Assembly (NCBI RefSeq): GCF_900100155.1
Contig: NZ_FMTP01000004.1
Span: 248,001 to 312,000, forward strand
Source: Ancylobacter rudongensis
Lineage (GTDB): Bacteria > Pseudomonadota > Alphaproteobacteria > Rhizobiales > Xanthobacteraceae
Reading direction: 5' to 3'
DNA: 64,000 bases
Numbering within the stretch: position 1 is the first letter of the stretch; the number at the start of each line of letters is the position of its first letter. Of this stretch, positions 48,882 through 63,593 are shown piece after piece. The notes below the pieces were generated by a model. The model was given only the letters and a program-made list of their open reading frames with translations. It was not told where the DNA came from and did no database searches. A program made the position numbers and the translations under genes.

Positions 48882-48920
48882 GCAAACTCCTGGATATCGG
48901 CGGCGGCACCGCGACGCTTT

Positions 48921-48961
48921 CCAGGGCAGACTGTTCAATGAACCGACAACTGTCAACAATT
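48921..48961 (-). promoter_or_regulatory. promoter with TGTTGACAGTT motif for the first dehydrogenase operon
   Basis: On the minus strand, TGTTGACAGTT (48948-48958 on plus as AACTGTCAACA) contains the -35 TTGACA. Exactly 17 bases later comes CAGTCT, a weak -10. The same TTGACA-17-CAGTCT arrangement, with GTTGnCGG after the -35, occurs before tctC. The motif is a near-palindrome of the sort bound by FCD-type GntR regulators. Confidence 0.6.
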
Positions 48962-49136
48962 AATGCCGACGAAGGCCAGCGTCCAGACAGCCGCGTTCCG
49001 CCGCTCAGGTCCATCTCGTCAGTCCACAATGCCGATGAATAAAGGGTTCGTAGCTCTCTCTCTGGCGGTAATTGGGAGCTGGCGGGGCAGTGGCTGCCGG
49101 TGACGCATGAGGCGAATATCGTCTCTTTAGTCCATC

Positions 49137-49148
49137 ATTGTTGACAAT
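49137..49148 (+). promoter_or_regulatory. near match to the shared motif before GntR copy 1
   Basis: ATTGTTGACAAT is a palindrome (ATTGT/ACAAT halves around TG) differing from the shared TGTTGACAGTT at two positions of the right half. It ends 28 bases before the GntR start codon at 49176, and its TTGACA could be a -35. This suggests autoregulation of the GntR gene. Confidence 0.5.
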
Positions 49149-49175
49149 CTGCGATTATGTGGGCCAGATGACGCC

Positions 49176-49913
49176 ATGCTCCGCCCCGCCGCAAACCCCG
49201 CCCGCACCCCGCGCACCGCCTCCTTCGTGCCGCTGATCCAGCGCGAGATCGAGCGGATGATCGGCACCGGCGAACTCACCGGCGGCACCCGCATCAATGA
49301 GAGCACGCTGGCGCTGCGGCTCGGCATCAGCCGGGGCCCGGTGCGCGAGGCCTGCCGGGCGCTGGAACAGATCGGCCTGCTGCGCAGCGAACTCAATCGC
49401 GGCTTCTTCGTGCGCGAGGTCTCCACCAAGGAGGCGCTCGACCTCTACGACATCCGCGCCGGCCTGTTCGGCACCGCCGGGCGGCTCGCGGCCGCCATCA
49501 TCACCACGGTGCAGCTGCGGGGGCTGGGAGAGCTGATCGCGCAGATGGACGCGGCGATCGAGGCACCCGACATCGCCACCTTCTACACGCTGAACAACGA
49601 GTTCCACCGCCAGGTCGTCGTCGCCTCCGACAATGACAAGCTGATCGAGCTGTACCCGCTGCTGGAGGCGGAACTGCATCTGTTCCGCCGGCGGGGCCTG
49701 GTGCTGCCGGGCTCGATGCGCACCTCCAATGACGAGCACAAGGCGATCCTCGACGCGCTGCGCCAGAGCGACGGCACTGGCGCCGCCCGCCTGCTGGAGC
49801 GGCACATCCTCGCCGGCAAGGCGCGCTTCCTGCGCACGCTGGAGGATGACAGCGCCACCGAGGCGCGGCCCGGCCCGCTCGATCCCCGCCATTCACGTTC
49901 CAAGGACAGGTAG
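49176..49913 (+). CDS. GntR-family regulator with FCD domain, copy 1
   Basis: A 245-residue FadR-subfamily GntR protein. The winged helix (about 18-85) has INESTLALRLGISRGPVREA and ELNRGFFVREVS. The FCD ligand domain (about 90-215) has YDIRAGLFGTAGRLAA, FHRQVVVAS and a late HKAILDAL, giving the Asp/His metal-site pattern of this class. Such proteins sense small carboxylates. It is divergent from the first dehydrogenase operon, with shared-motif sites on both sides, and is followed after 4 bases by the PdxA2-like gene. Confidence 0.92.
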   Translation: MLRPAANPARTPRTASFVPLIQREIERMIGTGELTGGTRINESTLALRLGISRGPVREACRALEQIGLLRSELNRGFFVREVSTKEALDLYDIRAGLFGTAGRLAAAIITTVQLRGLGELIAQMDAAIEAPDIATFYTLNNEFHRQVVVASDNDKLIELYPLLEAELHLFRRRGLVLPGSMRTSNDEHKAILDALRQSDGTGAARLLERHILAGKARFLRTLEDDSATEARPGPLDPRHSRSKDR

Positions 49914-49917
49914 TTCG

Positions 49918-50943
49918 ATGACCGCGCACCCGCTTCCCATCCTCGCCCTCACGCCCGGCGACTGCACCGGCATCGGCCCGGAACAGACCGCCCGCCTGCT
50001 CAGCCAGGGCGGGCTTGAGCATGTGGCGCGGCTGGTGGTGGTCGGCGATGCCCGCGTGCTTGATATGGGCGCCCGCCATGCCGGGGTGGCTCTGTCGTTC
50101 CAGCGTTACGACTCACCCGGCGCGGTGGACTGGAGCGCGCCCGGTATTCCGCTGGTGGATCTCGGCAACACCGACCCCGACCTGTTCCCGCTGGGCGTCG
50201 CCAACCCCGAGTCCGGCCGGCTGACCGGCGACACGCTGGCCCGCGCCATCGACTTCGCCAAGGCGGGGGAGGTGGACGGCGTGTGCTTCGCCCCGCTGAA
50301 CAAGCAGGCGATGTTCAAAGGGGGCTGGCGCTTCCCGGACGAGCACAAGATGTTCGCCCATCTGCTCGACCACAAAGGCCCGTTCAGCGAGATGAACGTG
50401 CTGGAGGGCCAGTGGATGACGCGCGTCACCTCGCATGTCTCGCTGCGCACGGCGCTGGACCAGGTGACGTTCGAGAGCGTGTGCGGCGCGCTACGCCTCG
50501 CCGACGAGACCATGCGCAAGGCCGGCATCGACCGCCCCCGCATCGCGGTGGCGGCGCTCAACCCGCATGGCGGCGAGGGCGGGCTGTTCGGCACCGAGGA
50601 AATCGACATCATCCGGCCGGCGGTCGAGGCGATGGCACGCGAGGGCATCGCCTGCGAAGGGCCCTATCCGTCCGACACCGTTTATCTCAAAGCGTTCGCC
50701 GGCGCCTATGACAGCGTGCTGGCGATGTATCACGACCAGGGCCAGATCGCGACCAAGCTCAAGGGCTTCAACAAGGGCGTGACCATCACAGCCGGGTTGG
50801 AGGTGGTGTTCACCACCCCGGCGCATGGCACGGCGTTCGATATCGTCGGCAAGGGCGTGGCCGATATCGGCGCCTTCCAGTCCGCCATCCGCCTCGCCGC
50901 CCGCGTCGCTGCGCGAAAGATCGAGGCCCGCGCCGCCGCGTGA
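49918..50943 (+). CDS. PdxA2-like dehydrogenase (4-phospho-hydroxythreonate family)
   Basis: A 341-residue protein of the PdxA family, whose PdxA2 members oxidise 4-phospho-D-threonate or -erythronate instead of the vitamin B6 precursor. LALTPGDCTGIGPE near 9-22, TSHVSLRTAL near 163, ALNPHGGEGGLFG near 205, SDTVYLKAFAGAYDSVLAM near 247 and YHDQGQIATKLKGF near 266 hold the three metal-binding histidines and phosphate site. Catabolic context argues against B6 synthesis. AAGGACAGG precedes the ATG at 49918. It is co-transcribed with GntR copy 1. No four-carbon acid kinase gene is present nearby, so the phosphorylated substrate is a puzzle. Confidence 0.85.
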   Translation: MTAHPLPILALTPGDCTGIGPEQTARLLSQGGLEHVARLVVVGDARVLDMGARHAGVALSFQRYDSPGAVDWSAPGIPLVDLGNTDPDLFPLGVANPESGRLTGDTLARAIDFAKAGEVDGVCFAPLNKQAMFKGGWRFPDEHKMFAHLLDHKGPFSEMNVLEGQWMTRVTSHVSLRTALDQVTFESVCGALRLADETMRKAGIDRPRIAVAALNPHGGEGGLFGTEEIDIIRPAVEAMAREGIACEGPYPSDTVYLKAFAGAYDSVLAMYHDQGQIATKLKGFNKGVTITAGLEVVFTTPAHGTAFDIVGKGVADIGAFQSAIRLAARVAARKIEARAAA

Positions 50944-50961
50944 GGCGCGCGCTTACGGATT

Positions 50962-50984
50962 CCCTCTCCCCGACGGGGAGAGGG
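50962..50984. repeat. 23-bp perfect palindrome between convergent genes
   Basis: CCCTCTCCCCG-A-CGGGGAGAGGG is fully symmetrical around one base. It sits between the PdxA2-like stop (50943) and the end of GntR copy 2 (51014). It is of a common GC-rich intergenic type; with no T-run it may act only as a message-end hairpin. Confidence 0.75.
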
Positions 50985-51013
50985 AGCGCGACCGCCGCGA
51001 GGCGCCGGCGCCG

Positions 51014-51715
51014 TCAGTCGTTGCGGGCGTGGCCGTCGACGGCGGCGATGAGCCGACGCTTGGCCAGCGCCACATGGCGCCAATGCGTCACCTGCGCCCG
51101 TTCGCCATCGCCGGAAGCCAGCGCCTCAAGCATCGCCCGGTGCTCGCGGTTCGATACGGCGAGGCCGCCGCCCTGCACCAGCGCGCGAGCGCGGAACAAA
51201 TGCAGCTTGTTGACGAAGCGGTGGTATTCGGCGAGCAGCGTGCGGTTGCCGCAGGAGCTGACAATGAGGTTATGGAAGCCGAGATTGAGCGGGTAATAAT
51301 CGTCGAAGCTGCCGCGCTCGGCCACCGCGTCCATCTCGTCGACCATGCGGGTCAGCTCGGCCAGCAGCCCGTCGGTCATGCGTTCGGCCAGCAGGCGACC
51401 CGCCTGGCCGAACAGCGCGGCGCGCACGTCATAGATCTCGATCGCGTCCTCGACTGACAGCCGCCGGACGAAGACGCCCCGGTTGCGCACTACCTCGACC
51501 AGCCCCTTCGCCTCAAGGCTGCGGGTGGCCTCGCGGATCGGGCCGCGGCTGGTGCCGAAGCGGTTCGAGAGGTGGATCTCGTTGATCCGAACCCCCGGCT
51601 CCAGCTCGCCTGTCAGAATGAGGCGCTCAAGTTCCTTTTCGAGCGCGCTCGTGAGGGAAACGCTCTTCACAACGGACAGGTCGCTCAAATGAGCGGAATC
51701 GCTGATGATGCTCAT
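51014..51715 (-). CDS. GntR-family regulator with FCD domain, copy 2
   Basis: A 233-residue FadR-subfamily GntR protein. The winged helix (about 20-90) has INEIHLSNRFGTSRGPIREA and VVRNRGVFVRRLS. The FCD domain (about 95-220) has IYDVRAALFGQAGRLLAE, LNLGFHNLIVSSCGN and SNREHRAMLEALA. It is about a third identical by eye to copy 1 in the DNA-binding part, so the two may read similar sites. It is transcribed away from nothing: the gene behind it is the end of the long catabolic operon on the same strand, so it could also be read through from that operon. Confidence 0.92.
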   Translation of the reverse strand: MSIISDSAHLSDLSVVKSVSLTSALEKELERLILTGELEPGVRINEIHLSNRFGTSRGPIREATRSLEAKGLVEVVRNRGVFVRRLSVEDAIEIYDVRAALFGQAGRLLAERMTDGLLAELTRMVDEMDAVAERGSFDDYYPLNLGFHNLIVSSCGNRTLLAEYHRFVNKLHLFRARALVQGGGLAVSNREHRAMLEALASGDGERAQVTHWRHVALAKRRLIAAVDGHARND

Positions 51716-51721
51716 CCGTCA

Positions 51722-51733
51722 ATTGTAAACAGT
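51722..51733 (-). promoter_or_regulatory. near match to the shared motif before GntR copy 2
   Basis: ATTGTAAACAGT differs from the shared ATTGTTGACAGT at its two central bases and keeps both halves (ATTGT/ACAGT). It lies 7-18 bases before the ATG at 51715, where a bound repressor would cover the ribosome-binding and start region. No separate -35/-10 is evident. Confidence 0.4.
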
Positions 51734-51757
51734 TTCGCGTTGGAAGGCTTCCAGTTT

Positions 51758-52864
51758 CTACGCGATGCGGCGGGTTGTGCCGGCTTCTGCGACACTTTGA
51801 TGTTGAAGAGCGGCGATCACCGCCGCCGTCACGTCGCTGGTGCCGGCCGTGCCGCCGAGATCCGGGGTCAGGGCTGTGCCCTCGGCCGTCACCTGCTCGA
51901 TGGCAGCCATCAGCCGCGCGGCGGCGTCCACCTCGCCCAGATGCTCCAGCATCATCACCGCGCTCCAGAACGCGCCGATCGGGTTGGCGATGCCCTTGCC
52001 GATCAGATCGAAGCCGGAGCCGTGGATCGGCTCGAACATGGAAGGCGTTGAGCGGTCCGGCGCCAGATTGGCGGTGGCGCCGATGCCGAGGCTCCCGCTC
52101 AGCGCCGAGGCAAGGTCGGAGAGCACATCGGCGTGCAGGTTGGTGGCGAGCACCGTGTCCACCGTGCCCGGCCGCAGCACGAGGCGCATGGTCATGGCGT
52201 CGACCAGCATCCAGTCGACATCCAACTCGGGGAAGTCCTTGATCACGCCCTTGCACACCTCGTCCCACAGCACCATGCCGTGGCGCTGGGCGTTCGACTT
52301 GGTGACGATGGTGAGTTTCTTGCGCGGGCGCGATAGGGCGAGTTCGCAGGCGAAGCGGCAGACGCGCTCGATGCCGGTGCGGGTGAACACCGAAACGTCG
52401 ATGCCGACCTCGATCGGCAGGCCGCGATGCGCCCGCCCGCCGGCGCCGGCATATTCGCCCTCGCTGTTTTCACGCACGATCACCCAGTCGATCTCGCGGC
52501 CCAACTCGGGCCGCAGCGGGCCGGTGATGTTCGGCAGGAGGCGCGAGGGGCGGACATTGGCGTATTGGTCGAGCCCCTGGCAGATGGCGAGGCGCAGTTC
52601 CCACAGGGTGATGTGGTCGGGAATCTCAGGATCGCCGACGGCGCCGAAATAGATGGCGTCGAAGCCGCGCAGCGTGTCGACGCCATCCGCCGGCATCATC
52701 GTGCCCGTGCGTCGGTAGCGGTCGGAGCCCCAGTCGAAGCTCTCGAAATCGAAGCCGAAGCCGCCATCGCTGGCAGCCAGCGCGTCGAGCACCTCGCGGC
52801 CGGCATTGATGACGTCGGAGCCGATGCCGTCTCCGGGAATGAGCGCGATTTTATGCCGGCGCAT
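51758..52864 (-). CDS. tartrate/isopropylmalate dehydrogenase-like protein, copy 2
   Basis: A 368-residue member of the isocitrate/isopropylmalate dehydrogenase family. It keeps ALIPGDGIGSDVINAG, the Arg block QYANVRPSRLL near 101, VIVRENSEGEYAGAGGR near 127, the Lys block VTKSNAQRHGMVLWDE near 186 and ATNLHADVLSDLAS near 240. In the last, His-Ala replaces the usual Phe-Gly before Asp. It is the last gene of the operon AbrB-SDR-MmgE-dehydrogenase-dehydrogenase and overlaps the previous gene by 14 bases. The substrate is unknown; likely an NAD-linked oxidation of a 2-hydroxy-di- or tricarboxylate. Confidence 0.88.
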   Translation of the reverse strand: MRRHKIALIPGDGIGSDVINAGREVLDALAASDGGFGFDFESFDWGSDRYRRTGTMMPADGVDTLRGFDAIYFGAVGDPEIPDHITLWELRLAICQGLDQYANVRPSRLLPNITGPLRPELGREIDWVIVRENSEGEYAGAGGRAHRGLPIEVGIDVSVFTRTGIERVCRFACELALSRPRKKLTIVTKSNAQRHGMVLWDEVCKGVIKDFPELDVDWMLVDAMTMRLVLRPGTVDTVLATNLHADVLSDLASALSGSLGIGATANLAPDRSTPSMFEPIHGSGFDLIGKGIANPIGAFWSAVMMLEHLGEVDAAARLMAAIEQVTAEGTALTPDLGGTAGTSDVTAAVIAALQHQSVAEAGTTRRIA

Positions 52865-53954
52865 GAGCGTTCTCCATAAAGGCGATAATGGCGGCGACCA
52901 TGTCCGCCTGGGTGCCGCTGCCGCGAATGTCGGGGGTGCGGGTGGCGGGGTCGGCCAGCGCTGCGTCGATGCCGGCCTTCATCAGCGCAGCTGCCTCGCC
53001 CGCGGCGGCAATGCCGCGACGGCGGCCGAGCCATTCGATCAGCATCCTTGTCGATTCAATCATCGCATAGGGGTTGGCGAGGCCCTTGCCGGCAATGTCC
53101 GGGGCCGAGCCGTGGGTGGCCTGCGCCATGGCGATCTCGCCGCGGCCGATGCACAGGCCCGGCGCCATGCCGAGCCCGCCGACGAGGCCGGCCGCCTCGT
53201 CGGTGAGAATGTCGCCGAACATGTTGGTGGTGACGACGACATCGAAGCGCTGCGGCTCGCGCACCAGCTTCATGGCGAAGGTGTCGACGATGACTTCCTC
53301 GATGGCGACATCGGGGAATTCCTTGCCGGCCTCGTAGCACTCTTCCACGAACATGCCGCAGCCGAGCTTGAACACGGTGTTCTTGTGCACCACCGTGAGC
53401 CGCTTCTTGCGCGCCCGGGCGATCTCGAAGGCGGCGCGTGCGACCTTGCGGCTGCCCTCGCGGGTGATGACGCGGACCGAGATGGTGGTGTCGTGCGTCG
53501 GGCGGAACTCGCCGCAGCCGGCGACCACGTTGCGGTCCGGCTGGAAGCCCTCATTGTTCTCGCGCACGATCACGAGGTCGATGTCGTCATAGAGGCACCC
53601 CAACCCCGGATAGGAGCGGGTGGGGCGCACATTGGCGAACAGGTCGAAGCTCTTGCGCAGGATCGGGTGCGGGTTGATCGCCTCCGGCACCTTCGGATAG
53701 GCCTGATGGCCGATCGGGCCGAGGATGAAGCCGTCGAGCGTGCCGAGCGTCTCCAGCGTGCCGGGCGGCATGGTGTGGCCGAGTTCTTCCAGCGCCTTGC
53801 GGCCGAGCGGCATCGGGCGCCACTCGACGGCGAGGCCGCAGGCCTGCGCCGCCGCAGCGGCGATGGCATGGGCGGCGGGGACGATCTCATGGCCGATATC
53901 GTCGCCATTGAGAACACCGATGCGCAGAGGTGGGTGCGTGGTCACGGTGCTCAC
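52851..53954 (-). CDS. isocitrate/isopropylmalate dehydrogenase-family protein, copy 3
   Basis: A 367-residue paralogue, clearly more diverged than copies 1 and 2. The first loop is VLNGDDIGHEIV, with Asp instead of Gly in GDGIG. The Arg block LFANVRPTRSY, the RENNEGF block, the Lys block VHKNTVFKLGCGMF and the metal block TTNMFGDILTDEAAGL are present. The ENNEGFQ form differs from the tartrate-type ENNEGEY. The GTG start at 53954 overlaps the MmgE stop (GTGA, 53951-53954); a GTG three codons later is possible. It shares the operon with copy 2, suggesting successive or heteromeric steps. Confidence 0.85.
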   Translation of the reverse strand: MSTVTTHPPLRIGVLNGDDIGHEIVPAAHAIAAAAAQACGLAVEWRPMPLGRKALEELGHTMPPGTLETLGTLDGFILGPIGHQAYPKVPEAINPHPILRKSFDLFANVRPTRSYPGLGCLYDDIDLVIVRENNEGFQPDRNVVAGCGEFRPTHDTTISVRVITREGSRKVARAAFEIARARKKRLTVVHKNTVFKLGCGMFVEECYEAGKEFPDVAIEEVIVDTFAMKLVREPQRFDVVVTTNMFGDILTDEAAGLVGGLGMAPGLCIGRGEIAMAQATHGSAPDIAGKGLANPYAMIESTRMLIEWLGRRRGIAAAGEAAALMKAGIDAALADPATRTPDIRGSGTQADMVAAIIAFMENAHAPA

Positions 53955-55318
53955 TCCGCCGCGTCGCGCAGGCCGGCCGGCACCGAAGCGCGGGCGATCT
54001 CGCCGACATCGCCCAGTTCCGGCAGGCGCCAGCACAGGGCCATCAGCCGCTCGGTCACCTCGTCGCCGACGACAAGGGCCGACTGGTGGGCGAATTTGCG
54101 CGCGAGGTGCTCGTTGCTCAGCGGCTTGTCATGGCTGCCGATGGCGCGGTCGATGATCTTCTCGATCACGCGCCCGTCCTCGAACTGCACCTCGATCTCC
54201 ACCGAGGCCTCGTGGATCGCGGTATCGGAGGTGGCGTCGACCTTGTCGCGCAGGGCAATGATCTCCGGCGCGTTGGCGGCTTCGTCGGTAAAGGCGGTGG
54301 GCGAGCCGTCGCCGCGCAGCAGGGCGCAGGCGGCGGCGTGGAAGACGCTGAACTTGGTCTCAAGCCCGGTCTTCGGCGTGCGCTTGCCGGTGAGTTCCAG
54401 CACCAGCGGATGGGTGCGCAGGCGCACGGCGGCGATGGCGTTCACCGCGTCGCCCAGCTCCTCGCGCAGCTGCTGGCAGCCGTCGATGGTGGGGTGGATG
54501 ACGATGCCGCAGGCGAAGGGCTTGTAGGAGTTGAGCCCGGCTTCCCAGGTCTCGCCGAGCCCGCCGAGGATCTCGTTATAATCCTGCTTGGTGGAGAGCA
54601 CATTGGCGAAGCCGCGCGGCGCCTCGATCGCCTGCAGCGAGCTGTCGAAGCCGGCCTTGGCGAGGAAGGCGGCGAGCGCGCCGTTGCGGGCGGCGGCGCC
54701 GGGGTGCAGGCTCTTGCACATGGTGCCGAACATTTCGCGCAGGCCCGAGGCCTGCGTCGCCGCAATGCCGAGCGCCCAGGTCATCTGGGTCTCATCCAGC
54801 TTCAGCATGTGGCCGACGGCGGCGGCGGCGCCGAACACGCCTGTGGTGCCGGTGATGTGCCAGCCGCGGTCGTAATGTTCGGGATAGACGCTGTTGCCGA
54901 TGCGGCATTCCACCTCGACGCCGACGATCAGCGCGGCGAGGAAATCGGCGCCGGTCATCGGCTGATACTCCGCCGCCGCCAGCAGGGCGGAGGCGACCGG
55001 CCCGGCGGGGTGGATGATGGTTTTCAGATGGGTGTCGTCATAGTCGAGCACATGCGAGGAGATGCCGTTGATCAGCGCCGCGTTCGGCACGTCCAGCCGC
55101 TCGCCGCGCCCGAGCACGGTTGCCTGCGGCTTGCCGGCGAAGGGCGAGATGCCGGCCAGCGCCCGGTCCACCGTCTCGTGGCGGGCGCCGCCGACGGCGC
55201 AGCCCATCCAGTTGAAGAAGGTGCGCACGCCCTCCGTCTGTACCGAGGCGGGAATGTCGCCGAGCTTGCAGCCGACGATCCAGGCGGCGAGCTGGCGGGT
55301 GACGTCTTTCGTGGACAT
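53951..55318 (-). CDS. MmgE/PrpD-family protein, copy 2
   Basis: A 455-residue protein of the same fold as the copy at 46339. SSHVLDYDDTHLKTIIHPAG near 88-107 and GVEVECRIGNSVYPEHYDRG near 130 are the family blocks, with [18 protein letters not shown] near 207 and KTGLETKFSVFHAAA near 320. It should act as a dehydratase, decarboxylase or epimerase on a carboxylic acid. The ATG at 55318 gives the normal N-terminus. It lies 11 bases after the SDR gene and overlaps the next dehydrogenase. It differs from copy 1 at many positions, so the two probably act on different intermediates. Confidence 0.9.
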   Translation of the reverse strand: MSTKDVTRQLAAWIVGCKLGDIPASVQTEGVRTFFNWMGCAVGGARHETVDRALAGISPFAGKPQATVLGRGERLDVPNAALINGISSHVLDYDDTHLKTIIHPAGPVASALLAAAEYQPMTGADFLAALIVGVEVECRIGNSVYPEHYDRGWHITGTTGVFGAAAAVGHMLKLDETQMTWALGIAATQASGLREMFGTMCKSLHPGAAARNGALAAFLAKAGFDSSLQAIEAPRGFANVLSTKQDYNEILGGLGETWEAGLNSYKPFACGIVIHPTIDGCQQLREELGDAVNAIAAVRLRTHPLVLELTGKRTPKTGLETKFSVFHAAACALLRGDGSPTAFTDEAANAPEIIALRDKVDATSDTAIHEASVEIEVQFEDGRVIEKIIDRAIGSHDKPLSNEHLARKFAHQSALVVGDEVTERLMALCWRLPELGDVGEIARASVPAGLRDAAE

Positions 55319-55329
55319 TCTGTTCTCCT

Positions 55330-56124
55330 TTAAACGAGGCCGCGCGCGATGCCGCCGTCGACATTGATGGATTGGCCGGTGATGTAGCTGGCGAGCGGGC
55401 TGGCGAGCCACGCGACCATGACCGCGATCTCCGCCGGCTCGGCGAAGCGCTTCAGCGGGATTTCTTCCGCGAATTCGGCGTAGATCGCTTCCACCGGCAC
55501 GCCGCGCTCGGCGGCCATCTTGGTTGCGCGGTTGATCCAGAGCGCGGTCTTGGTGCGGCCGGGGCCGACCGCGTTGATGCGGATGCCCTTTTCGCCGAGC
55601 TCCAGCGCCAGCGTCTTGACGAGGCCGAGCAGGCCGGCCTTGTGGACATTGGTCATGATCTGGTGCGCGTAGGGCATCTTCGCCGCCGCCGCGCCCAGCG
55701 TGACCACGGCCGGCGTGTCGCCCGCCGCCAGCAGGGGCAATGCGGCGCGCACGGAGCGGACGGTGGAGAGCACGTTGAACTCATAGCTCGCGAGCCAGTC
55801 TTCGTCGCTCAGCGTGTCGAAATCCGCCCGCACGCTCCCGCCCACCGCGCTGACGAGAATGTCGAGCGCCCCCCAGCGCGTGCGCGCCTCGTCCATCAGT
55901 GCGATCGCCGAGGCGGCATCCTTCACCACATCGGCGACGAAGAGTTCGGGCGCGCGCCCGGTCGCCACTTCGAGGCGGGCGCGGGCGGCCTCCAGATTGT
56001 CGCGGCTGCGCGAGGCGATCAGCACCTGCGCGCCCTCGCGCAGCAGAATGGCGGCGGTGGCCTCGCCAATGCCGTAGCTGCCGCCGACGATGACGGCGCG
56101 GCGGCCGTCAAACCCCAGAATCAT
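55330..56124 (-). CDS. SDR-family protein without the catalytic Ser/Tyr
   Basis: A 264-residue short-chain dehydrogenase/reductase fold. The cofactor loop VIVGGSYGIGEA (11-22) and the C-terminal YITGQSINVDGG are classical. However the active-site YxxxK is TNVHK (Thr158, Lys162), and the Ser position 12-14 residues earlier is in an Ala run (GAAAAK), so both catalytic hydroxyl residues are missing while Lys and the fold are kept. It may be a binding protein or use an unusual mechanism. Its start lies inside the AbrB-type gene (17-base overlap). Confidence 0.82.
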   Translation of the reverse strand: MILGFDGRRAVIVGGSYGIGEATAAILLREGAQVLIASRSRDNLEAARARLEVATGRAPELFVADVVKDAASAIALMDEARTRWGALDILVSAVGGSVRADFDTLSDEDWLASYEFNVLSTVRSVRAALPLLAAGDTPAVVTLGAAAAKMPYAHQIMTNVHKAGLLGLVKTLALELGEKGIRINAVGPGRTKTALWINRATKMAAERGVPVEAIYAEFAEEIPLKRFAEPAEIAVMVAWLASPLASYITGQSINVDGGIARGLV

Positions 56125-57214
56125 ATTGGCTCCTCAGCACGAAGCGGTAGACGCGGAACACGATCAGGATGGTCGACGAGATCACCGCGATGCGGACGAT
56201 GTGAAACGCCGTCACCAGCTCGGCATCGGCGTGCATCGCCTTGGCGGTGAGCACCATTTCGGTGATCGCCGCCGGGGCGAGGGCGAGGAAGCTGGTGGTG
56301 AGCGGCAGCCCGGTGGCGAGCGAGAGCGCTTCCGCCCCCAGCGCTGCGGCGAGGATGAGCAGCACCCCGATCAGCAGGCCGGAGGCGGCGACGCGCGGCA
56401 GCCGCACGAACAGGTCGCGGCGGAAGCGCAGGCTCAGCCAGACGCCGATCATCACCTGCGCCGCGATGATGAGGAGGCCCGGAACCGCGACATTGAGCAG
56501 GCCGGTCGCGCCCAATACGGCGCTCGGCAGCAGCGAGCCGAGCAGCCAGGGATTGGGAATGACCGTCGGGCGCAGCGCCTGTGCGCCGAGATAGGCGATG
56601 ACGAGGCCGAGACCCAGCAGCAGCAAATCATGCGAGGCGGTGGGGTCGACCGTGTTGACGTTGCCGGTCTCGCCGAAGGCGAACACCATAAACGGCACGA
56701 TGCTGACCACCGTCGTGACCCGCAGCGCGTGGACGATCGAGACCGCGTTCGTATCACCGCCCCGCGCGGCCGCCACCACCGCCATGTCGGCCATGCCGCC
56801 GGCGGCGGTGGCGAAGAAGGCGGTGGTGGGGTCGATACGCGCCAGTGGGCGCATGATGAGCGCGCCGATGAAGGTGGCAATGATGATGTAGAGCGTCGCC
56901 ACCAGCATGGCCGGCAGCAGTTCCAGCGACACCAGCAGCAGATGCGGCGTGAAGCGCATGCCGATGGCGAGACCGACAATGACCTGCCCGATCTCGCGCA
57001 GATGCGGCCCGGCCTGCAAGGGCACGCCCGAAACATTCAGCAGGCCGCAGACGAAGAGCGGGCCGAGCATCCAGGGCAGGGGGACGTGCAGGCGCGAGGC
57101 GGCATAGCCGGCGGCGGCGGCGACGGCGTAGGTGCCGACAAGGCGCAGCCCGGCCATCCACCGCAACGCCCCCCGCTTGCCCGCCGGGTTGGGCGGTTCG
57201 GGACGCGCCGCCAT
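56108..57214 (-). CDS. AbrB-family integral membrane protein (putative transporter)
   Basis: A 368-residue hydrophobic protein with about ten membrane segments in two similar halves (VPLPWMLGPLFVCGLLNVSG near 45, NPWLLGSLLPSAVLGATG near 215). This duplicated AbrB domain is unrelated to the DNA-binding AbrB and is sometimes mislabelled as ammonia monooxygenase. In catabolic clusters with TctABC it is presumed to move carboxylates. The ATG at 57214 puts a basic stretch before the first segment; longer in-frame starts up to 57346 are possible. It leads the SDR-MmgE-dehydrogenase operon. Confidence 0.83.
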   Translation of the reverse strand: MAARPEPPNPAGKRGALRWMAGLRLVGTYAVAAAAGYAASRLHVPLPWMLGPLFVCGLLNVSGVPLQAGPHLREIGQVIVGLAIGMRFTPHLLLVSLELLPAMLVATLYIIIATFIGALIMRPLARIDPTTAFFATAAGGMADMAVVAAARGGDTNAVSIVHALRVTTVVSIVPFMVFAFGETGNVNTVDPTASHDLLLLGLGLVIAYLGAQALRPTVIPNPWLLGSLLPSAVLGATGLLNVAVPGLLIIAAQVMIGVWLSLRFRRDLFVRLPRVAASGLLIGVLLILAAALGAEALSLATGLPLTTSFLALAPAAITEMVLTAKAMHADAELVTAFHIVRIAVISSTILIVFRVYRFVLRSQYDSGV

Positions 57215-57413
57215 CACCCGTTCGCCCGCCCGGCAGACGCCTGCCTCTGTGCCGTGACGGTCGCGATGAGGCGGGAGGTCGGCCTCCGGCGGTGGCGCGG
57301 GCGTTCGGACATGACGGCCTCCCCAAAGTGCCGCGACGGTTCGCATCGGCGCGGCGGTTTGTTGGCGCCTGTCTCGCAGCGGGCAGGTTGCCGCCGGCAG
57401 GGCATGCGGCGAT

Positions 57414-57442
57414 AGAGACAGCTTGAATGAAAACTGTCAACA
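57414..57442 (-). promoter_or_regulatory. promoter with TGTTGACAGTT motif for the AbrB-led operon
   Basis: On the minus strand TGTTGACAGTT (plus-strand 57432-57442, AACTGTCAACA) supplies TTGACA. A 17-base spacer is followed by CTCTAT as a fair -10. The start codon is 200 bases downstream (or 70 if the longer start is used). Confidence 0.55.
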
Positions 57443-57613
57443 GATTGATGGGTCCTGCGCCGCCTCTCCACAGTCGACGGAAAAGGCGTGTGAAAGGGCT
57501 CACGCACGGTGTTTCGTTGATTCAAAGGTCAGAGCTGCCCCAAAGGAGCCGCCGGGCGACCGTCGCGTGGCGTCGCGAGCTATCCTTGCGGATACCGTAT
57601 CTCGCGGCAAATG

Positions 57614-57644
57614 TGTTGACAGTTGACGGAGAGCGGGACAGTCT
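57614..57644 (+). promoter_or_regulatory. promoter with TGTTGACAGTT motif for tctCBA
   Basis: TGTTGACAGTT (57614-57624) supplies the -35 TTGACA (57616-57621). A 17-base spacer leads to CAGTCT (57639-57644), the same weak -10 as in the promoter at 48921-48961. The tctC ATG follows about 80 bases later. A weak -10 with an operator over the -35 suggests activation or tight repression by a GntR protein. Confidence 0.55.
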
Positions 57645-57722
57645 TCCCCAGCCTAATCCACACGGGCCGGCCGCTTCATGGCCGCCGGCCGAAGGACCCA
57701 GATGGAACGGCGGGAGGAAAAC

Positions 57723-58715
57723 ATGACAGATTTCACACGCAGAGATGCCTTCAAGATTTCGGCGGGCGGCCTCGCAGCGGTCTCCGGCATGGTCGCCATG
57801 CCATCCATCCTGCGCGCCGCGACCTATCCCTCGCGTCCGATCAATGTGATCGTGCCCTTCGCCACCGGCGGCTACAATGATCGCCTGTCCCGTGCCTTCA
57901 TGCCGTATCTTGAGCAGGAGCTGGGCCAGCCCCTCGTCATCGTCAACAAGCCCGGCGCCGGCACCCAGCTCGGCAATTCCTATGCGCTGAACCAGCCGGC
58001 CGATGGCTACTCCATCCTGTGCACCTCGGCCGCGCCCTATATCCCGCTGACCGTGCTGCTGCAGAACGCGCCGTACAAGGTCGAGGACTTCTCGATGATC
58101 AACCTGCCGTCGCGTGACTACACGCTGGCGGCGACTTCGTCCGGCGGGCCGGTAAAGACCTTCGCCGAGGTGATCGAGAAGCTGAAGAAGGACCCGTCGA
58201 GCCTCAGCATCGGCGTGCAACCCGCTTCCGCCGACTATGCCAACATGGTGCTGGCCTTCCAGGCCGCCGGGGTCGATGCCAGCAAGCTGCGCATCGTCAC
58301 CTATGATGGCGGCGGCCCGGCCCGCAACGCCACCGCCGGCGCCCAGGTCGATGTCGGCTTCGTCGGCGGCGAGGGCTTCCTGCCGCTGAAGTCGAAGGTC
58401 CGCCCGCTGGCCATTTTCGCCGCCGAGCAGGTGGACTGGTATCCCGACGCGCCGCTGATTGGCGCTACCCTCAAGACCGACTTCGTCGAAGGCTCGCAGC
58501 GCGGCTGGGCCGTTACCACCAAGCTGAAGAACGAGCAGCCGGAGATTTTCAAGATTCTCGTGGCGGCGGTCGAGAAGGCGAGCAAGAACCCGAAGGCGAT
58601 CGAGACGCTGAAGCTGCAGGAACTGGCCACCACTTGGTACGGGCCGGATGCTTCCAACAAGGCCTATCTCGACAACGCCGCCAAGATGGCGAAATACGTC
58701 GATCTGCTGAAGTAG
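57723..58715 (+). CDS. tctC: tripartite tricarboxylate transporter substrate-binding protein
   Basis: A 330-residue periplasmic binding protein of the Bug/TctC family. The twin-arginine signal TRRDAFKIS (Arg6-Arg7) is followed by a hydrophobic core and a likely cut after SILRAA (about residue 33). The mature part begins YPSRPINVIVPFATGGYND, the family carboxylate-binding loop, with NKPGAGTQLGNSYAL near 77. It should capture a di- or tricarboxylate and pass it to TctAB. GGGAGG precedes the ATG at 57723. First gene of tctCBA. Confidence 0.92.
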   Translation: MTDFTRRDAFKISAGGLAAVSGMVAMPSILRAATYPSRPINVIVPFATGGYNDRLSRAFMPYLEQELGQPLVIVNKPGAGTQLGNSYALNQPADGYSILCTSAAPYIPLTVLLQNAPYKVEDFSMINLPSRDYTLAATSSGGPVKTFAEVIEKLKKDPSSLSIGVQPASADYANMVLAFQAAGVDASKLRIVTYDGGGPARNATAGAQVDVGFVGGEGFLPLKSKVRPLAIFAAEQVDWYPDAPLIGATLKTDFVEGSQRGWAVTTKLKNEQPEIFKILVAAVEKASKNPKAIETLKLQELATTWYGPDASNKAYLDNAAKMAKYVDLLK

Positions 58716-58792
58716 GCCGCATCAATGGAAGGCGGGCCGCCGGTGCGGCGCGCCCGCCTTCATTCTCCCTCCTCTGACGAATGGAGATGAAG

Positions 58793-59293
58793 ATGCGTAT
58801 CGGTCGGCACAGCTATGCCATCGACTATGGCCATCTCGCGCTCATCACGTTCATCGCGGCACTCGTCTTCTGGTATCTTCTCGATGCCCGCAGCGTGTCG
58901 CTGAGCGTGAACAATCTGCTTCTGGTGCAGCCGGTGGCGATCTTCGCGCTGGCGATGTACCTGTTCATCGTGCCGCAGTGCTTCCACAAGCTGGAGGCGC
59001 GCGAGGCGGCCAAGCCCACATCCGAGAACGACCCGTTCGCCGTGAGCCTGTCCACGGACCGTGCGGATGTGATCCGCATGGCGGCGCTCGGCGTGTCGCT
59101 CGGGCTGATGGTGTTCCTGCTCGATGTCATCGGCTTCGACATCGCCATCTTCCTGTTCGCCGCCGCGGCCATGGCCATTTGCGGCGAGCGGCGGCCGCTG
59201 CATCTGCTGTTCTTCTCGCTCGCCGTCACACTGGTCACGATCTACGGCTTCCGCGCCCTGATCTCCTATCCCATGCACACGACCCTGCTGTGA
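58793..59293 (+). CDS. tctB: tripartite tricarboxylate transporter small membrane subunit
   Basis: A 166-residue protein with about four membrane segments (about 15-33, 42-60, 90-108, 115-150), as in TctB, the small subunit that pairs with TctA. Three in-frame ATGs lie at 58781, 58787 and 58793. I prefer 58793 because GGAG at 58783-58786 is then a well-spaced Shine-Dalgarno, while nothing suitable precedes 58781. It lies 77 bases after tctC and 10 before tctA. Sequence is weakly conserved in this family, so position is the main evidence. Confidence 0.85.
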   Translation: MRIGRHSYAIDYGHLALITFIAALVFWYLLDARSVSLSVNNLLLVQPVAIFALAMYLFIVPQCFHKLEAREAAKPTSENDPFAVSLSTDRADVIRMAALGVSLGLMVFLLDVIGFDIAIFLFAAAAMAICGERRPLHLLFFSLAVTLVTIYGFRALISYPMHTTLL

Positions 59294-59303
59294 GGCGCGC
59301 CCG

Positions 59304-60872
59304 ATGATCGACGTATCCGCCTTCAATGATGCCCTCGGCATCATGTTCACGTCGGTCGGGTCCTGGGGATGGATTGTCCCGGGCCTGATCGTCGGCCTCG
59401 TCTTCAGCGCCATTCCCGGCATTTCGATCACCATGGCGATGGCGATCGTGCTGCCAATGTCGCTCTACATGGATTTCTTCTCGGCCATCGTGTTCCTCAC
59501 CTCGGTCTATACCGGGGCCGGGTTCGGCGGGTCGGTGCCGGCGATCCTGATGAACATACCGGGCTCGCCATCGTCTTTCGCGACCACCTTCGACGGCTAT
59601 GCCATGTCGCAGAAGGGCGAGCACAACGAGGCGCTCGGCTATGCGCTGTTCGCTTCCACCCTGTGCGGCATCGCCGGCTATGTGCTGCTGCTCCTCGTCA
59701 TCGAGCCGCTGGCCGACATCGTGCTACGGATCGGGCCGGTGGAAATGTTCGCGGTGGCGATCTGGGGCATGATGCTGCTGGGCTCGCTCGGCTCCACCTA
59801 TATCAGCCGCGGTCTGCTGGCCGCTGCGCTGGGCATCCTGCTCGGCACGGTGGGCATGAACACCGCCGGCTTCACCCGCGGCACGCTGGGCCTGCCGGTG
59901 CTGCTCGACGGCATTGCGCCGATCCCGGCGATGATCGGCCTGCTGGCGGCGAGCCAGCTGCTCAGCCTCGCCAGCCGCGACTACATCATCGAGGCCGAGG
60001 GCTCGCGCGAGGTCAGCCTGCGCAAGATTCTCAAGGGCTGCTGGGGCACGCTGAAATATCCCGGTGTGCTGCTGCGCGGCTCGATCATCGGCATCATCAT
60101 CGGTGCCGTGCCGGGCGTCGGCTCCTCCATCGGCAACCTCATCGCCTATGCCGAGACCAAGCGCACCGCCAAGGACAGCGCCACCTTCGGCAAGGGCAAC
60201 CCGAAGGGCGTGATCGCGGCGGAATCGGCGGTGGCGAGCGGCGAGGGCGGCTCCATGGCCACCATGCTGGCGCTCGGCATTCCCGGCGGCGGCGCCACCG
60301 CGATCCTGATCGCGGCCTTCATGATGCACAACATCGTGCCCGGCCCGAGCTTCATCGAGACGCAGAAGCCGATGGTCTACGCCATCATCCTCAACAACAT
60401 CGTCCAGGCGGTGGTGCTGCTGGCGGTGGGTATCGGCTTCATCTATGTCGCCTCCAACATCATGAAGGTGCGGACCCGCTACGTGCTGCCGGCGATCCTC
60501 GTCATCGCCACGCTGGGCACCTTCGCGGTGACCGGCGAGGCGGCCGGACCGATCACTTTGTTCGTGTTCGCTCTGCTCGGCTATGCCCTCAACCGCTACC
60601 AGTATCCGGTCTCGGCGGTGGTGGTCGGCATCCTGCTGGGCCGCATGCTGGAGACCGAGTTCCTGCGCTCCTACCAGCTCTCCGGCGGTAATCCGCTCTA
60701 TATTCTGGAACGGCCCGGCGCGATGGCGATCTTCGCGGTCATGTTCGCCTCTCTCGCCATGACCGCCTGGGGCAAGCGCAAGCAGAACCGGGCGGAAGCG
60801 GCCGAGGCGCTCGCGATGCGGCAGATTCAGGAAGAAACCCGCGCCGCGCACACGACGCCCAGCAAGGGCTGA
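59304..60872 (+). CDS. tctA: tripartite tricarboxylate transporter large membrane subunit
   Basis: A 522-residue integral membrane protein with about a dozen spans. The family signatures are present twice, as expected for its internal duplication: GLVFSAIPGISITMAMAI near 32 and GIIIGAVPGVGSSIGNLIAY near 262, with SVYTGAGFGGSVPAILMNIP near 67 and GIPGGGATAILIAAFM near 330. It forms the transport channel with TctB, powered by ion symport. The substrate is not deducible. A perfect terminator hairpin follows 28 bases after the stop. Confidence 0.95.
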   Translation: MIDVSAFNDALGIMFTSVGSWGWIVPGLIVGLVFSAIPGISITMAMAIVLPMSLYMDFFSAIVFLTSVYTGAGFGGSVPAILMNIPGSPSSFATTFDGYAMSQKGEHNEALGYALFASTLCGIAGYVLLLLVIEPLADIVLRIGPVEMFAVAIWGMMLLGSLGSTYISRGLLAAALGILLGTVGMNTAGFTRGTLGLPVLLDGIAPIPAMIGLLAASQLLSLASRDYIIEAEGSREVSLRKILKGCWGTLKYPGVLLRGSIIGIIIGAVPGVGSSIGNLIAYAETKRTAKDSATFGKGNPKGVIAAESAVASGEGGSMATMLALGIPGGGATAILIAAFMMHNIVPGPSFIETQKPMVYAIILNNIVQAVVLLAVGIGFIYVASNIMKVRTRYVLPAILVIATLGTFAVTGEAAGPITLFVFALLGYALNRYQYPVSAVVVGILLGRMLETEFLRSYQLSGGNPLYILERPGAMAIFAVMFASLAMTAWGKRKQNRAEAAEALAMRQIQEETRAAHTTPSKG

Positions 60873-60900
60873 GCGTTCTTCTCCTATCGGCAGAACTCGG

Positions 60901-60929
60901 AGGGCGGGTGCGAACCCGCCCTTTTCGTT
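60901..60929 (+). terminator. intrinsic terminator of tctCBA
   Basis: Perfect 9-bp stem AGGGCGGGT / ACCCGCCCT (60901-60909, 60914-60922) with a GCGA loop, followed by TTTCGTT. It is 28 bases past the tctA stop on the plus strand. Confidence 0.85.
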
Positions 60930-60961
60930 GTGCGATGCCCCGGCCTGCTGCCGGGCAAAGA

Positions 60962-60991
60962 AAACCCCTTCCGCCGCTCGCGAAAGGGGTT
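60962..60991 (-). terminator. intrinsic terminator of the hydrolase-rhodanese operon
   Basis: On the minus strand AACCCCTT / AAGGGGTT (60984-60991 and 60963-60970) pair perfectly, with further G-C pairing inside, and are followed by TTTTCTTTG. It lies 30 bases past the rhodanese stop at 61021. Confidence 0.8.
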
Positions 60992-61020
60992 GAGGGCAGA
61001 ACGAGCGCCCCGCGCGGCCG

Positions 61021-62607
61021 TCAGGCCGGGGAGATGGGGACCCAGCCAAAGGCGGCGCGCTCGGCCTCGTCCAGCTGGTGGATGAGGCCCATTTCCCAGG
61101 CGAGATATTGGCGGGACGCCTCGGCATTGCCGTCATGGCGGTCATGGACGAACCAGACCCGGTCGCGGGCGTCCTCCCGGCTCATGCGCCGGCGCACGCG
61201 ATCGACCGGCCACCCCGCCTGCGCGCAGGCATCGGCGTCGGCCGGCAGCCAGCGGGCGGAAACGCCGGCCGCGCGCAGCTCGCAAGTGGCCGCCGCGACG
61301 GCCGTTGCATCACCGAGCAGAATCGCCTGCCGTGCGCCCTTCGCGAGCGCGCCGGGCAGCTCGCCGCGCAGCACCCAGCGCGCGCCATCGAGCCGCCACG
61401 ACTCCCAGTCGCCGGAGGCGCGCAGATCCAGCACCGGCACGCCGCTCTGGGCGAGGCCCCACGCCGTCCGGGCGTCAATCGCGGCAGGCGGGGCGGGGGC
61501 CTTGAGCGCGAGCGCGGGAACCATGGGGACGTCGTTTTCCTCGACCTCATCAAGCGCCAGCACATGCGTCTCGAAGCCGAGCGCGCGCAGGAACAGCGCC
61601 GCCAGCGCGGCCCGCAGCCCGGTGTCGTCGATCAGGATCAGCCGGCCATGGCGGATGCCGACATATTGGTCGGTCGCCTGAATCAGCTGGCCGGCAAGGA
61701 CGGGGACCGCACCTGGCACCGGCCGGGCCGCCCGTTCCGCCTCGCTGCGCAGATCGAACAGGAAGGGGGTGCGGCCGGCCTCATGCAGCAGCGTTTGCTC
61801 CGCGCGAGGCGTGAGCGTCGAGAGCTGCGCGGCGGCGATAAGGCGTTGGGCACGGGCCCGGCTGGCCTGCGCCTGGGCGGGGTCCAGCTCCGGCAGCGGA
61901 TCGGCCTGCGCGCCCCGGTCGAGCGGCAGGCCGGCGAGCGCCCAGCCCTGCGTGCCGTTTTCCAGCGCATAGACCGGGTTGGCCACGCCGATGGCGCGCA
62001 GCGTCAGCGCCCCGACAATGCCGCGGGTCCGGCCGGCGCAGGTGATGACGATCGGCGTCGCAGGGTCCGGCACGGCGGCGCCGACCCGATGGGCGAGCTC
62101 GCCATTGGGCACGCAGCGCGCGCCCTCGATCCGCATCTTGGCGTATTCGATAGGGGGCCGGGCATCGAAGAAGGCGTGCGCGCGCCCCTCGCGGCGCCAG
62201 CGTGCCAGCGTGGCGGCGTCGATCATCGCGGGGCGATGGTCGTGCTCCAGCAATTCGCCCAGCGTCTTGCTCGGCACATTGACCCCGGCGAAGACACCGA
62301 ACCCCGCCGCTTGCCATTCGGGAAGCCCACCCGCGAGGACGGCGATGTCGGTATAGCCGCAGGCCGCCAGCCGCTGCGCGGCCGTCTCGGCGATGCCGTC
62401 GCCATCATCGATGAGCAGCACCGGGCAGTCGGGGCGCGGCACCAACGCAATGGCGGAGGCTTCCAGCCGGCTGAACGGGCAGGGGACGGCGAAGAGCGGG
62501 TGCCCCTCGCCGAAGGCTGCCGCCTCGCGCACATCGAGAAAGGCGATTTCCTCCCCGCCATGCAGGCGGGCCTTTGCCGCCGCCGCCGTCACCGCTGCCG
62601 TGTTCAT
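61021..62607 (-). CDS. multi-domain rhodanese-like protein
   Basis: A 528-residue protein of four rhodanese-like units (about 18-105, 125-235, 268-370 and 385-475). Each opens with a DVRE/DARP/DLRS/DLRA-type strand. Only unit 2 has an active-site cysteine (Cys190 in ITCAGRTRG); the matching loops of the others carry Asp or Gly (IDDGDGIAE, IDDTGLRA, LGDATAVA), so they are probably structural. A C-terminal tail of about 50 residues follows. It should move sulfane sulfur, but the acceptor is unknown. The ATG overlaps the hydrolase stop (ATGA, 62604-62607). Confidence 0.87.
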   Translation of the reverse strand: MNTAAVTAAAAKARLHGGEEIAFLDVREAAAFGEGHPLFAVPCPFSRLEASAIALVPRPDCPVLLIDDGDGIAETAAQRLAACGYTDIAVLAGGLPEWQAAGFGVFAGVNVPSKTLGELLEHDHRPAMIDAATLARWRREGRAHAFFDARPPIEYAKMRIEGARCVPNGELAHRVGAAVPDPATPIVITCAGRTRGIVGALTLRAIGVANPVYALENGTQGWALAGLPLDRGAQADPLPELDPAQAQASRARAQRLIAAAQLSTLTPRAEQTLLHEAGRTPFLFDLRSEAERAARPVPGAVPVLAGQLIQATDQYVGIRHGRLILIDDTGLRAALAALFLRALGFETHVLALDEVEENDVPMVPALALKAPAPPAAIDARTAWGLAQSGVPVLDLRASGDWESWRLDGARWVLRGELPGALAKGARQAILLGDATAVAAATCELRAAGVSARWLPADADACAQAGWPVDRVRRRMSREDARDRVWFVHDRHDGNAEASRQYLAWEMGLIHQLDEAERAAFGWVPISPA

Positions 62608-63533
62608 GTAACGCGCTCACCACGGAAGAAGCGGTAGAAGGCGGCGTAGATAAGATCGGGGCGGTGCTCGGCCGGGTAGTGCCCGGTCGGCACCGGCAGG
62701 CCGACGAGATCGTCCGCCCATTCCGACCAGGCTTCCACCGGCTTGAAGTGACGGCCGCAATGGCTGTTGGTGCCCCAGATCACCAGGGTCGGACAGGCGA
62801 TCTTGCGCGTGCCGTAGTCGGCCGTGTCCATGTCGAGGTCGACGGTGATGGTGGCGCGGTAATCCTCGCACACGGCGTGGATCTGCTCGCGGGTGGCGCA
62901 GCGTATGTACTCGTCCATCGCCTCGGGGGTGAAGATCTCCAGCCCCACGCCCTTCTTGTTGAGCTTGTAGCGCATGTAATAGTCGAGATCGGCGCCGAGC
63001 AGGTTTTCGGGAAACGGTGCCTTCTGCGCCATGAAGAACCAGTGATAGCTCTCGCGCGCCCAGCCGAGCGTGATGTTGTTCAGCACATGGTGCGTCGGCA
63101 CGATGTCGAGCGCGGCGTAGCGGGTGATGCGCTCGGGCCGGTCGAGGCACATGCGGAAGCCGACGCGGGCGCCACGGTCATGGCCGGCGACGGCGAAGGT
63201 CTCGTGGCCGAGTGCGTCCATCACCTCGAACGCATCCTCGCCGATGGCGCGGAAGGAATAGCCCGAATGGTCCTCGCCGCCATCGGGCTTGGAGCTGTCG
63301 CCATAGCCGCGCATGTCGATCGCGACCACCGAGAAATCGCGCGCCAGCGACGGGGCCACCTTGTGCCAGCTGACCAGAGTAAGCGGGTTGCCATGGATGA
63401 GGAGGAGGGGAGGTCCTTCGCCGGCAGTGGCGACATTGATCTCGGCGCCGCGCGTCCTGATGCGCCGGAAGGTGAAACCCTCCATCAGCCGCGTGGTCTG
63501 AACGAGTTCGGGAACGGCTTCTGCAACGTCCAT
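62604..63533 (-). CDS. haloacetate dehalogenase-like alpha/beta hydrolase
   Basis: A 309-residue alpha/beta hydrolase of the fluoroacetate dehalogenase group. The nucleophile is Asp119 in AGHDRGARVGF, with Arg120 and Arg123 for the carboxylate. His164-Trp165 (ESYHWFF) fit the halide pocket; Asp143 and His285 (TGHYPAEH) complete the triad. From memory the R. palustris enzyme has Asp110, Arg111, Arg114, Asp134, His155 and Trp156, a constant offset of 9. The halide-site Tyr is less certain (Tyr225). It should hydrolyse a haloacid or an ester-like analogue. It leads the operon with the rhodanese gene; a TGTTGACAGTT site lies 47 bases upstream. Confidence 0.88.
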   Translation of the reverse strand: MDVAEAVPELVQTTRLMEGFTFRRIRTRGAEINVATAGEGPPLLLIHGNPLTLVSWHKVAPSLARDFSVVAIDMRGYGDSSKPDGGEDHSGYSFRAIGEDAFEVMDALGHETFAVAGHDRGARVGFRMCLDRPERITRYAALDIVPTHHVLNNITLGWARESYHWFFMAQKAPFPENLLGADLDYYMRYKLNKKGVGLEIFTPEAMDEYIRCATREQIHAVCEDYRATITVDLDMDTADYGTRKIACPTLVIWGTNSHCGRHFKPVEAWSEWADDLVGLPVPTGHYPAEHRPDLIYAAFYRFFRGERVT

Positions 63534-63559
63534 CGGGCGCCTCCTCGCATGGGTCGGAC

Positions 63560-63593
63560 TTTACTGTCCGCATTGTGCCAACTGTCAACAATA
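63560..63593 (-). promoter_or_regulatory. promoter with TGTTGACAGTT motif for the hydrolase-rhodanese operon
   Basis: On the minus strand TGTTGACAGTT (plus-strand 63580-63590) supplies TTGACA; 17 bases later AGTAAA is a weak -10. The hydrolase start codon at 63533 is 47 bases beyond the motif. Confidence 0.5.

Follow-up and report, generated by a model that had tools for sequence, protein, structure and literature searches.

A candidate FadR-type operator in Ancylobacter rudongensis

In a published account of the FadR subfamily of GntR regulators (PMC4494728), the operator consensus is TKGT/ACMA, with GT and AC separated by 2 or 3 bases; groups with a 2-base spacing are named, and double sites in divergons are described. 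Here, we analyzed a stretch of Ancylobacter rudongensis DNA (64,000 nucleotides of contig NZ_FMTP01000004.1, hereafter the window), in which the 11-base word TGTTGACAGTT precedes four operons of a gene cluster that also encodes two FCD-type GntR proteins, GntR1 and GntR2. The locus resembles the subfamily, as described there, in having an FCD regulator, a TKGT/ACMA palindrome with a two-base GT-AC spacing, and sites before operons, in divergons (here tctC/abrB) and before regulator genes. Our analysis suggests, with a probability of roughly 0.85, that a GntR repressor of the FadR subfamily uses the motif as its operator, and the gntR2 product is the most likely candidate. One GntR-type regulator would very probably control both the import and the degradation of a tartrate-like acid.

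Distribution of the word in the genome and in the genus

The four copies of TGTTGACAGTT reported in the original prediction lie at the coordinates and on the strands given there (Table 1), compared with an expectation of 0.00 copies in dinucleotide shuffles of the window, and no one-mismatch copy is present in the 64 kb. The variants placed upstream of the two GntR genes were also found (ATTGTTGACAAT at 49137 and ATTGTAAACAGT at 51722). The original prediction had named many copies in unrelated coding regions as evidence against a regulon; in the whole genome (4,498,808 bases, 18 contigs), the exact word occurs four times, always at these cluster sites, and its reversed control once. The palindrome AYTGTNNACART likewise occurs at four places genome-wide, every one in the cluster (control, 1). 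A 12-base core with up to two mismatches gave 46 genome matches versus 22 for the control, showing that the specificity is limited to the strict word and that looser matching is not specific. With a wider-palindrome profile built from the genus sites, exactly six sites were detected in the window, and all of them precede genes or operons (ttuC1-mmgE1, gntR1-pdxA, gntR2, the abrB-led operon, tctCBA, and abh-rhodanese), with a mean of 0.8 in the Markov control. A wider regulon in the same genome was rejected from the contexts of those one-mismatch matches that fall beyond the cluster, which lie inside an open reading frame (ORF) with a PRC-barrel domain (contig C7), between an MFS ORF and an IMS ORF (C14), and directly upstream of a third FCD-GntR paralogue (C16).

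Comparison of 30 Ancylobacter genomes revealed that a tctC orthologue (E value of 1e-80 or better) is present in 17, and that the same 17 genomes carry at least one copy of the exact 11-mer, which is found in 0 of the 13 others. We aligned the 17 loci, comprising the A. rudongensis cluster and 16 relatives. Gene order is kept, ttuC2 being absent from three loci, mmgE2 from four and the rhodanese gene from one. When the highest-scoring match around the expected location is taken, a site is present at all six positions in 17/17 loci, with a conserved core and drifting flanks; the exact 11-mer stands before ttuC1 in 16/17, abrB in 15/17, tctC in 17/17 and abh in 13/17. The palindrome AYTGTNNACART was found at 75 places in the 17 genomes that carry the cluster (control, 23) and at 18 places in the 13 others (control, 15), indicating a background of about one per genome, so that its exclusivity to the cluster in A. 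rudongensis is partly luck. A few exact 11-mers lie outside the cluster in the relatives. A copy of TGTTGACAGTT at L036:2839-2849 is located 21 bases 5' of another gene of the FCD-GntR type, which adjoins an Ldh_2 gene and has a tctA-like gene nearby.

Recurrence of the sites in other families

Outgroup loci were selected by alignment of the GntR2 protein, not by the motif, as the best 78 of 214 confirmed relatives. The scan covered 55 of them (L050-L116, less the Ancylobacter-type clusters L070 and L102 and the genus loci L103-L112, which have only the third paralogue) and yielded 88 profile matches at a score of at least 14, versus 4.2 in Markov shuffles. Among these matches, 79 precede a cluster-gene homologue by at most 350 bases, 1 is inside such a homologue, and 8 are elsewhere. 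A common layout consists of tctABC, two sites, and mmgE1-abrB-sdr-mmgE2-idh3-ttuC2-gntR2. The hydrolase gene was found in 10 of the 11 outgroup genomes searched, on the same contig as gntR2 at a distance of 6 to 13 kb, and eight of these ten genes have an upstream site scoring at least 17. In a set of 31 more distant genomes, 10 contain the exact word (25 copies versus 12 for the control), several copies lying at contig ends. The cluster was detected in Ancylobacter and in loci labelled Rhizobiaceae, Aurantimonadaceae, and Rhodobacteraceae. The regulon that the original prediction had drawn across separate operons is thus supported by the exclusivity of the word in the genome, its co-occurrence with tctC in the genus, the conservation of the six positions, and the recurrence in other families.

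Overlap of the predicted operators with promoter elements

Analysis of the sites suggested that each is a palindrome, ATTGT-NN-ACAAT, and that the exact 11-mer reads as this palindrome with a -35 TTGACA superposed. The assignment of TTGACA as a -35 element, with a weak -10 hexamer 17 bases on, agrees with the sequence at operators 1 to 4 (Table 1). At operators 2 and 3, TGT-NN-ACA is kept, and the outer T is replaced by C or G. Operator 2 lies approximately 210 bases upstream of the abrB start (gap 57223-57431), a distance of 173-267 bases across the 17 genus loci. A structured RNA was rejected, as 0 Rfam matches were obtained at the gathering threshold between 44000 and 64000, a range that includes this long leader.

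The regulator genes are arranged differently. At gntR1, TTGACA starts 35 bases 5' of the start codon (49141-49176), a spacing that could correspond to a leaderless transcript, and the gntR2 site almost abuts the start codon (51715-51734). In the 17 genus loci, the sites are located at -18 to -20 for gntR2 and at -39 to -59 for gntR1. TTGACA is present in 17/17 of the ttuC1, abrB, tctC, and gntR1 sites, in 13/17 of the abh sites, and in 0/17 of the gntR2 sites, the central bases of which are TT, CT or CA. In the outgroup, TTGACA in the direction of the gene occurs in 21/24 tctC sites, 25/43 sites before other structural genes, and 3/12 gntR sites, and the tctC sites share the consensus tAgCtT 17 bases downstream of it. 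The constraint common to the sites is thus the palindrome, to which TTGACA is added at many promoters. A conserved ACAGT-like block downstream of the tctC and ttuC1 sites was considered as an extra half-site; extra boxes at 7-12 bases from the operator center are described in the FadR-subfamily account (PMC4494728). That reading was set aside because the block is more distant and stands at -10 spacing, and a -10 element is preferred.

Taken together, these features suggest a mechanism in which a GntR2 dimer would bind the palindrome aATTGT-NN-ACAATt. At most structural promoters, the palindrome covers the -35 box, and the bound dimer would exclude RNA polymerase; TGTTGACAGTT would combine the operator and the -35 box in one word. 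The site of gntR2, a few bases 5' of the start codon and without TTGACA, may serve autoregulation, in that a bound dimer would obstruct either the start region or the advance of polymerase. Binding of a carboxylic-acid ligand in the FCD domain would release the dimer and switch on TctCBA import together with the catabolic proteins (TtuC1, TtuC2, Idh3, MmgE1, MmgE2, PdxA, SDR, the hydrolase, and the rhodanese). The GntR2 residues N144, H148, H192, and H214 are conserved in 17/17 alignment rows and in GntR1; FCD domains bind metal and carboxylate through such residues, which points to a carboxylic acid as the probable signal. The locus would be a clear case of an operator placed over a -35 box, in which comparison can separate the two constraints.

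The reader of the sites and alternative explanations

The original prediction had proposed both GntR proteins as the likely readers. Its assignment to the GntR family is supported, and equal roles of the two proteins appear less likely. GntR1 as the main reader, or a division of the six sites between GntR1 and GntR2, would be in keeping with the conserved palindrome of gntR1 itself, the presence of both genes in 16/16 relatives, and a recognition helix of the same core. Comparison with the outgroup revealed, however, that a GntR1 orthologue (76%) is present in 1 of 11 genomes tested. In the other ten, the best GntR1 matches are 38-45% identical and in 9/10 are the GntR2 gene itself, and the sites and GntR2 persist in these ten genomes. 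Because the sites persist without a GntR1 orthologue, GntR2 is the constant partner and the likelier main reader, and a leading or shared role of GntR1 appears unlikely. The helix core SRGP(I/V)REA is identical in GntR1, GntR2, and the third paralogue (C16; 48% to GntR2), so that sequence by itself does not separate the readers. Upstream of the third paralogue (L007:2588-3292), AATTGTTGACACTT is located approximately 30 bases 5' of the start, at about L007:2550-2563. The word AATTGTTGACACT(T/C) occurs 30-34 bases 5' of the start in 5 of 10 genus loci that have only this paralogue, with AATTGTCGACAGTT in L104, the 3-base-spaced ATTGTCCTACAAT in L109 and L112, the same form on the opposite strand in L106, and a one-base variant in L107. 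Related regulators seem to read related words.

The nature of the word was weighed in the same way. A conserved -35 region without any operator would account for TTGACA and for the conserved hexamer region 17 bases on at ttuC1, abrB, and tctC. This explanation is largely refuted and very improbable, since conservation extends past TTGACA on both sides, the 11-mer is absent elsewhere in the genome, and the palindrome stands without the box in all the genus gntR2 sites and in 7 of the 8 stronger outgroup abh sites (all but that of L117), with TAGACA, TAAACA or TCGACA centers. The position of all four copies within 15 kb might suggest a chance repeat or the recent duplication of one upstream segment, an idea refuted by the shuffle counts, by the recurrence of the sites in other families, and by a likeness between sites that stops near their edges. 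An activating role of the GntR protein would be in keeping with the hexamers 17 bases on, which are poor -10 matches (CAGTCT, CACTGT) of a kind presumably common at activated promoters. TTGACA is nevertheless a perfect box and the site lies on it, and an operator overlapping the -35 box usually means repression; activation is therefore improbable, and repression by GntR2 is preferred.

Several observations weigh against this repressor model. The 17 genus loci are related and do not represent 17 independent events, and the weakest genus site, that of abrB in L024, scores 10.1. The outgroup loci are the top 78 of the 214 relatives, and the proportion of 79/88 matches upstream of cluster-gene homologues stands without a random-place baseline for 350-base windows. 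Eleven of the 55 outgroup loci have no match, 6 of these 11 being contigs shorter than 8 kb; two of the ten outgroup hydrolase genes have solely weak sites (12.4 and 11.8); and TTGACA is lacking in 18/43 outgroup sites that precede structural genes apart from tctC. The common helix core and the near-match site of the third paralogue make shared or cross-regulation possible, and both the binding of GntR2 and its control of expression are predicted from sequence.

Organization of the cluster and a possible pathway

The positions of the predicted operators and genes are listed in Table 1. Gene spacing defines the units ttuC1-mmgE1, gntR1-pdxA, abrB-sdr-mmgE2-idh3-ttuC2-gntR2, tctC-tctB-tctA, and abh-rhodanese, with the gntR2 site as an extra site within the long abrB-led operon.

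Table 1. Predicted operators and genes of the cluster (window coordinates)
Feature	Position	Strand	Remarks
operator 1	48948..48961	-	upstream of ttuC1-mmgE1; exact 11-mer 48948-48958; TTGACA 48951-48956; CAGTCT 48928-48933
gntR1-pdxA operator	49137..49148	+	ATTGTTGACAAT; upstream of gntR1-pdxA
gntR2 operator	51721..51734	-	AACTGTTTACAATT; immediately 5' of gntR2; without TTGACA
operator 2	57432..57445	-	upstream of abrB-led operon; exact 11-mer 57432-57442; CTCTAT 57412-57417
operator 3	57611..57624	+	upstream of tctCBA; exact 11-mer 57614-57624; CAGTCT 57639-57644
operator 4	63580..63593	-	upstream of hydrolase-rhodanese operon; exact 11-mer 63580-63590; AGTAAA 63560-63565
mmgE1	46339..47766	-	MmgE/PrpD family
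ttuC1	47799..48890	-	tartrate dehydrogenase family; TIGR02089 545.6 bits, above cut-off 470.4
gntR1	49176..49913	+	additional GntR regulator of FCD type; 42% identity with GntR2 in matched part
pdxA	49918..50943	+	PdxA-family dehydrogenase; TIGR00557 257.8 bits, below cut-off 290.35
gntR2	51014..51715	-	FCD-type GntR regulator, likely site reader; Pfam GntR and FCD; retained with sites outside genus
ttuC2	51758..52864	-	tartrate dehydrogenase family; TIGR02089 507.8 bits, above cut-off 470.4
idh3	52851..53951	-	isocitrate/homoisocitrate-type dehydrogenase; TIGR02089 211.3 bits, below cut-off 470.4
mmgE2	53951..55321	-	MmgE/PrpD family; nearest solved relatives IRG1, IDS-epimerase
sdr	55330..56124	-	short-chain dehydrogenase
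abrB	56108..57223	-	AbrB-family membrane protein (Gneg_AbrB_dup)
tctC	57678..58715	+	receptor protein of tripartite tricarboxylate transporter
tctB	58781..59293	+	unit tctC-tctB-tctA
tctA	59304..60872	+	unit tctC-tctB-tctA
rhodanese	61021..62607	-	multi-domain rhodanese
abh	62604..63533	-	alpha/beta hydrolase; resembles fluoroacetate dehalogenases

GntR1 and GntR2 both match PF00392 (GntR helix-turn-helix, N-terminal) and PF07729 (FCD, C-terminal) above the cut-off, and the AbrB protein is a member of a membrane-protein family, not a DNA-binding regulator. The best structure match of Abh is 3qyj, labelled just Alr0039 protein, and Abh is also close to fluoroacetate dehalogenases. Alignment with 3r3u (phmmer, 7.2e-75) includes the HDRGAR, HW, and CEDYRA stretches, and by sequence similarity Abh would be a fluoroacetate dehalogenase-type hydrolase. 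These stretches are of catalytic significance. In two relatives (L029:629-1264 and L033:649-1284), the hydrolase operon is directly flanked by one more gene resembling gntR2 (50%) and by a gene resembling mmgE1 (44-45%). Beyond the last operon of the window, the AT-rich segment 63928-63961 forms a perfect inverted repeat, the arms of which (ATATAACGATTGCA ... TGCAATCGTTATAT) are 14 bases long.

Judging from the enzyme families, the substrate and signal is probably tartrate-like or another, related hydroxy acid. One tentative and rather doubtful extension is that alphaproteobacteria have a pathway, so far undescribed, for a hydroxy-dicarboxylate that is substituted and perhaps halogenated, in which TctCBA would feed several beta-decarboxylating dehydrogenases and the MmgE/PrpD enzymes, and the co-repressed hydrolase would remove halide or open an ester or epoxide. 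The predicted switch would tie together six neighboring transcription units, among them those for an importer and for a hydrolase resembling dehalogenases, and turn an uncharacterized gene cluster into one testable pathway. The ligand that releases GntR2 from its operator probably corresponds to the substrate itself or to an intermediate formed early, offering a route to the substrate.

Comparison with known systems

Both regulators have TIGR03338 (phnR_burk) as the best NCBIfam match, at 208.4 bits for GntR1 and 226.4 bits for GntR2, both below the cut-off of 271.5; the scan of 15 proteins of the cluster gave no match to a phosphonate family. The best solved-structure match of GntR2 is PDB 7xp0 (1.6e-24), a distant one at 90 bits, labelled 'probable transcriptional regulator'. 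We take 7xp0 to be PmiR, the 2-methylisocitrate-responsive repressor of Pseudomonas, which presumably controls genes including an MmgE/PrpD-family member. TtuC1 matches the tartrate dehydrogenase/decarboxylase 3flk at 3.3e-127, and TtuC1 and TtuC2 both pass TIGR02089. In contrast to that enzyme, they stand here alongside a TctCBA transporter, a pair of MmgE/PrpD proteins, and a hydrolase of dehalogenase-like sequence. No published description of the regulon was found among the matches listed, judged by titles and abstract openings, and the combination of regulator and operons is not among the groups named in the available part of the FadR-subfamily account (PMC4494728). The gene set seems to be undescribed, and the type of switch is well known. 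The locus has the features of the subfamily, namely a regulator with helix-turn-helix and FCD domains, a TTGT-NN-ACA(A/G) palindrome, sites conserved upstream of orthologous operons, and sites at the regulator genes, and the present case would fit as a further FadR-subfamily group.

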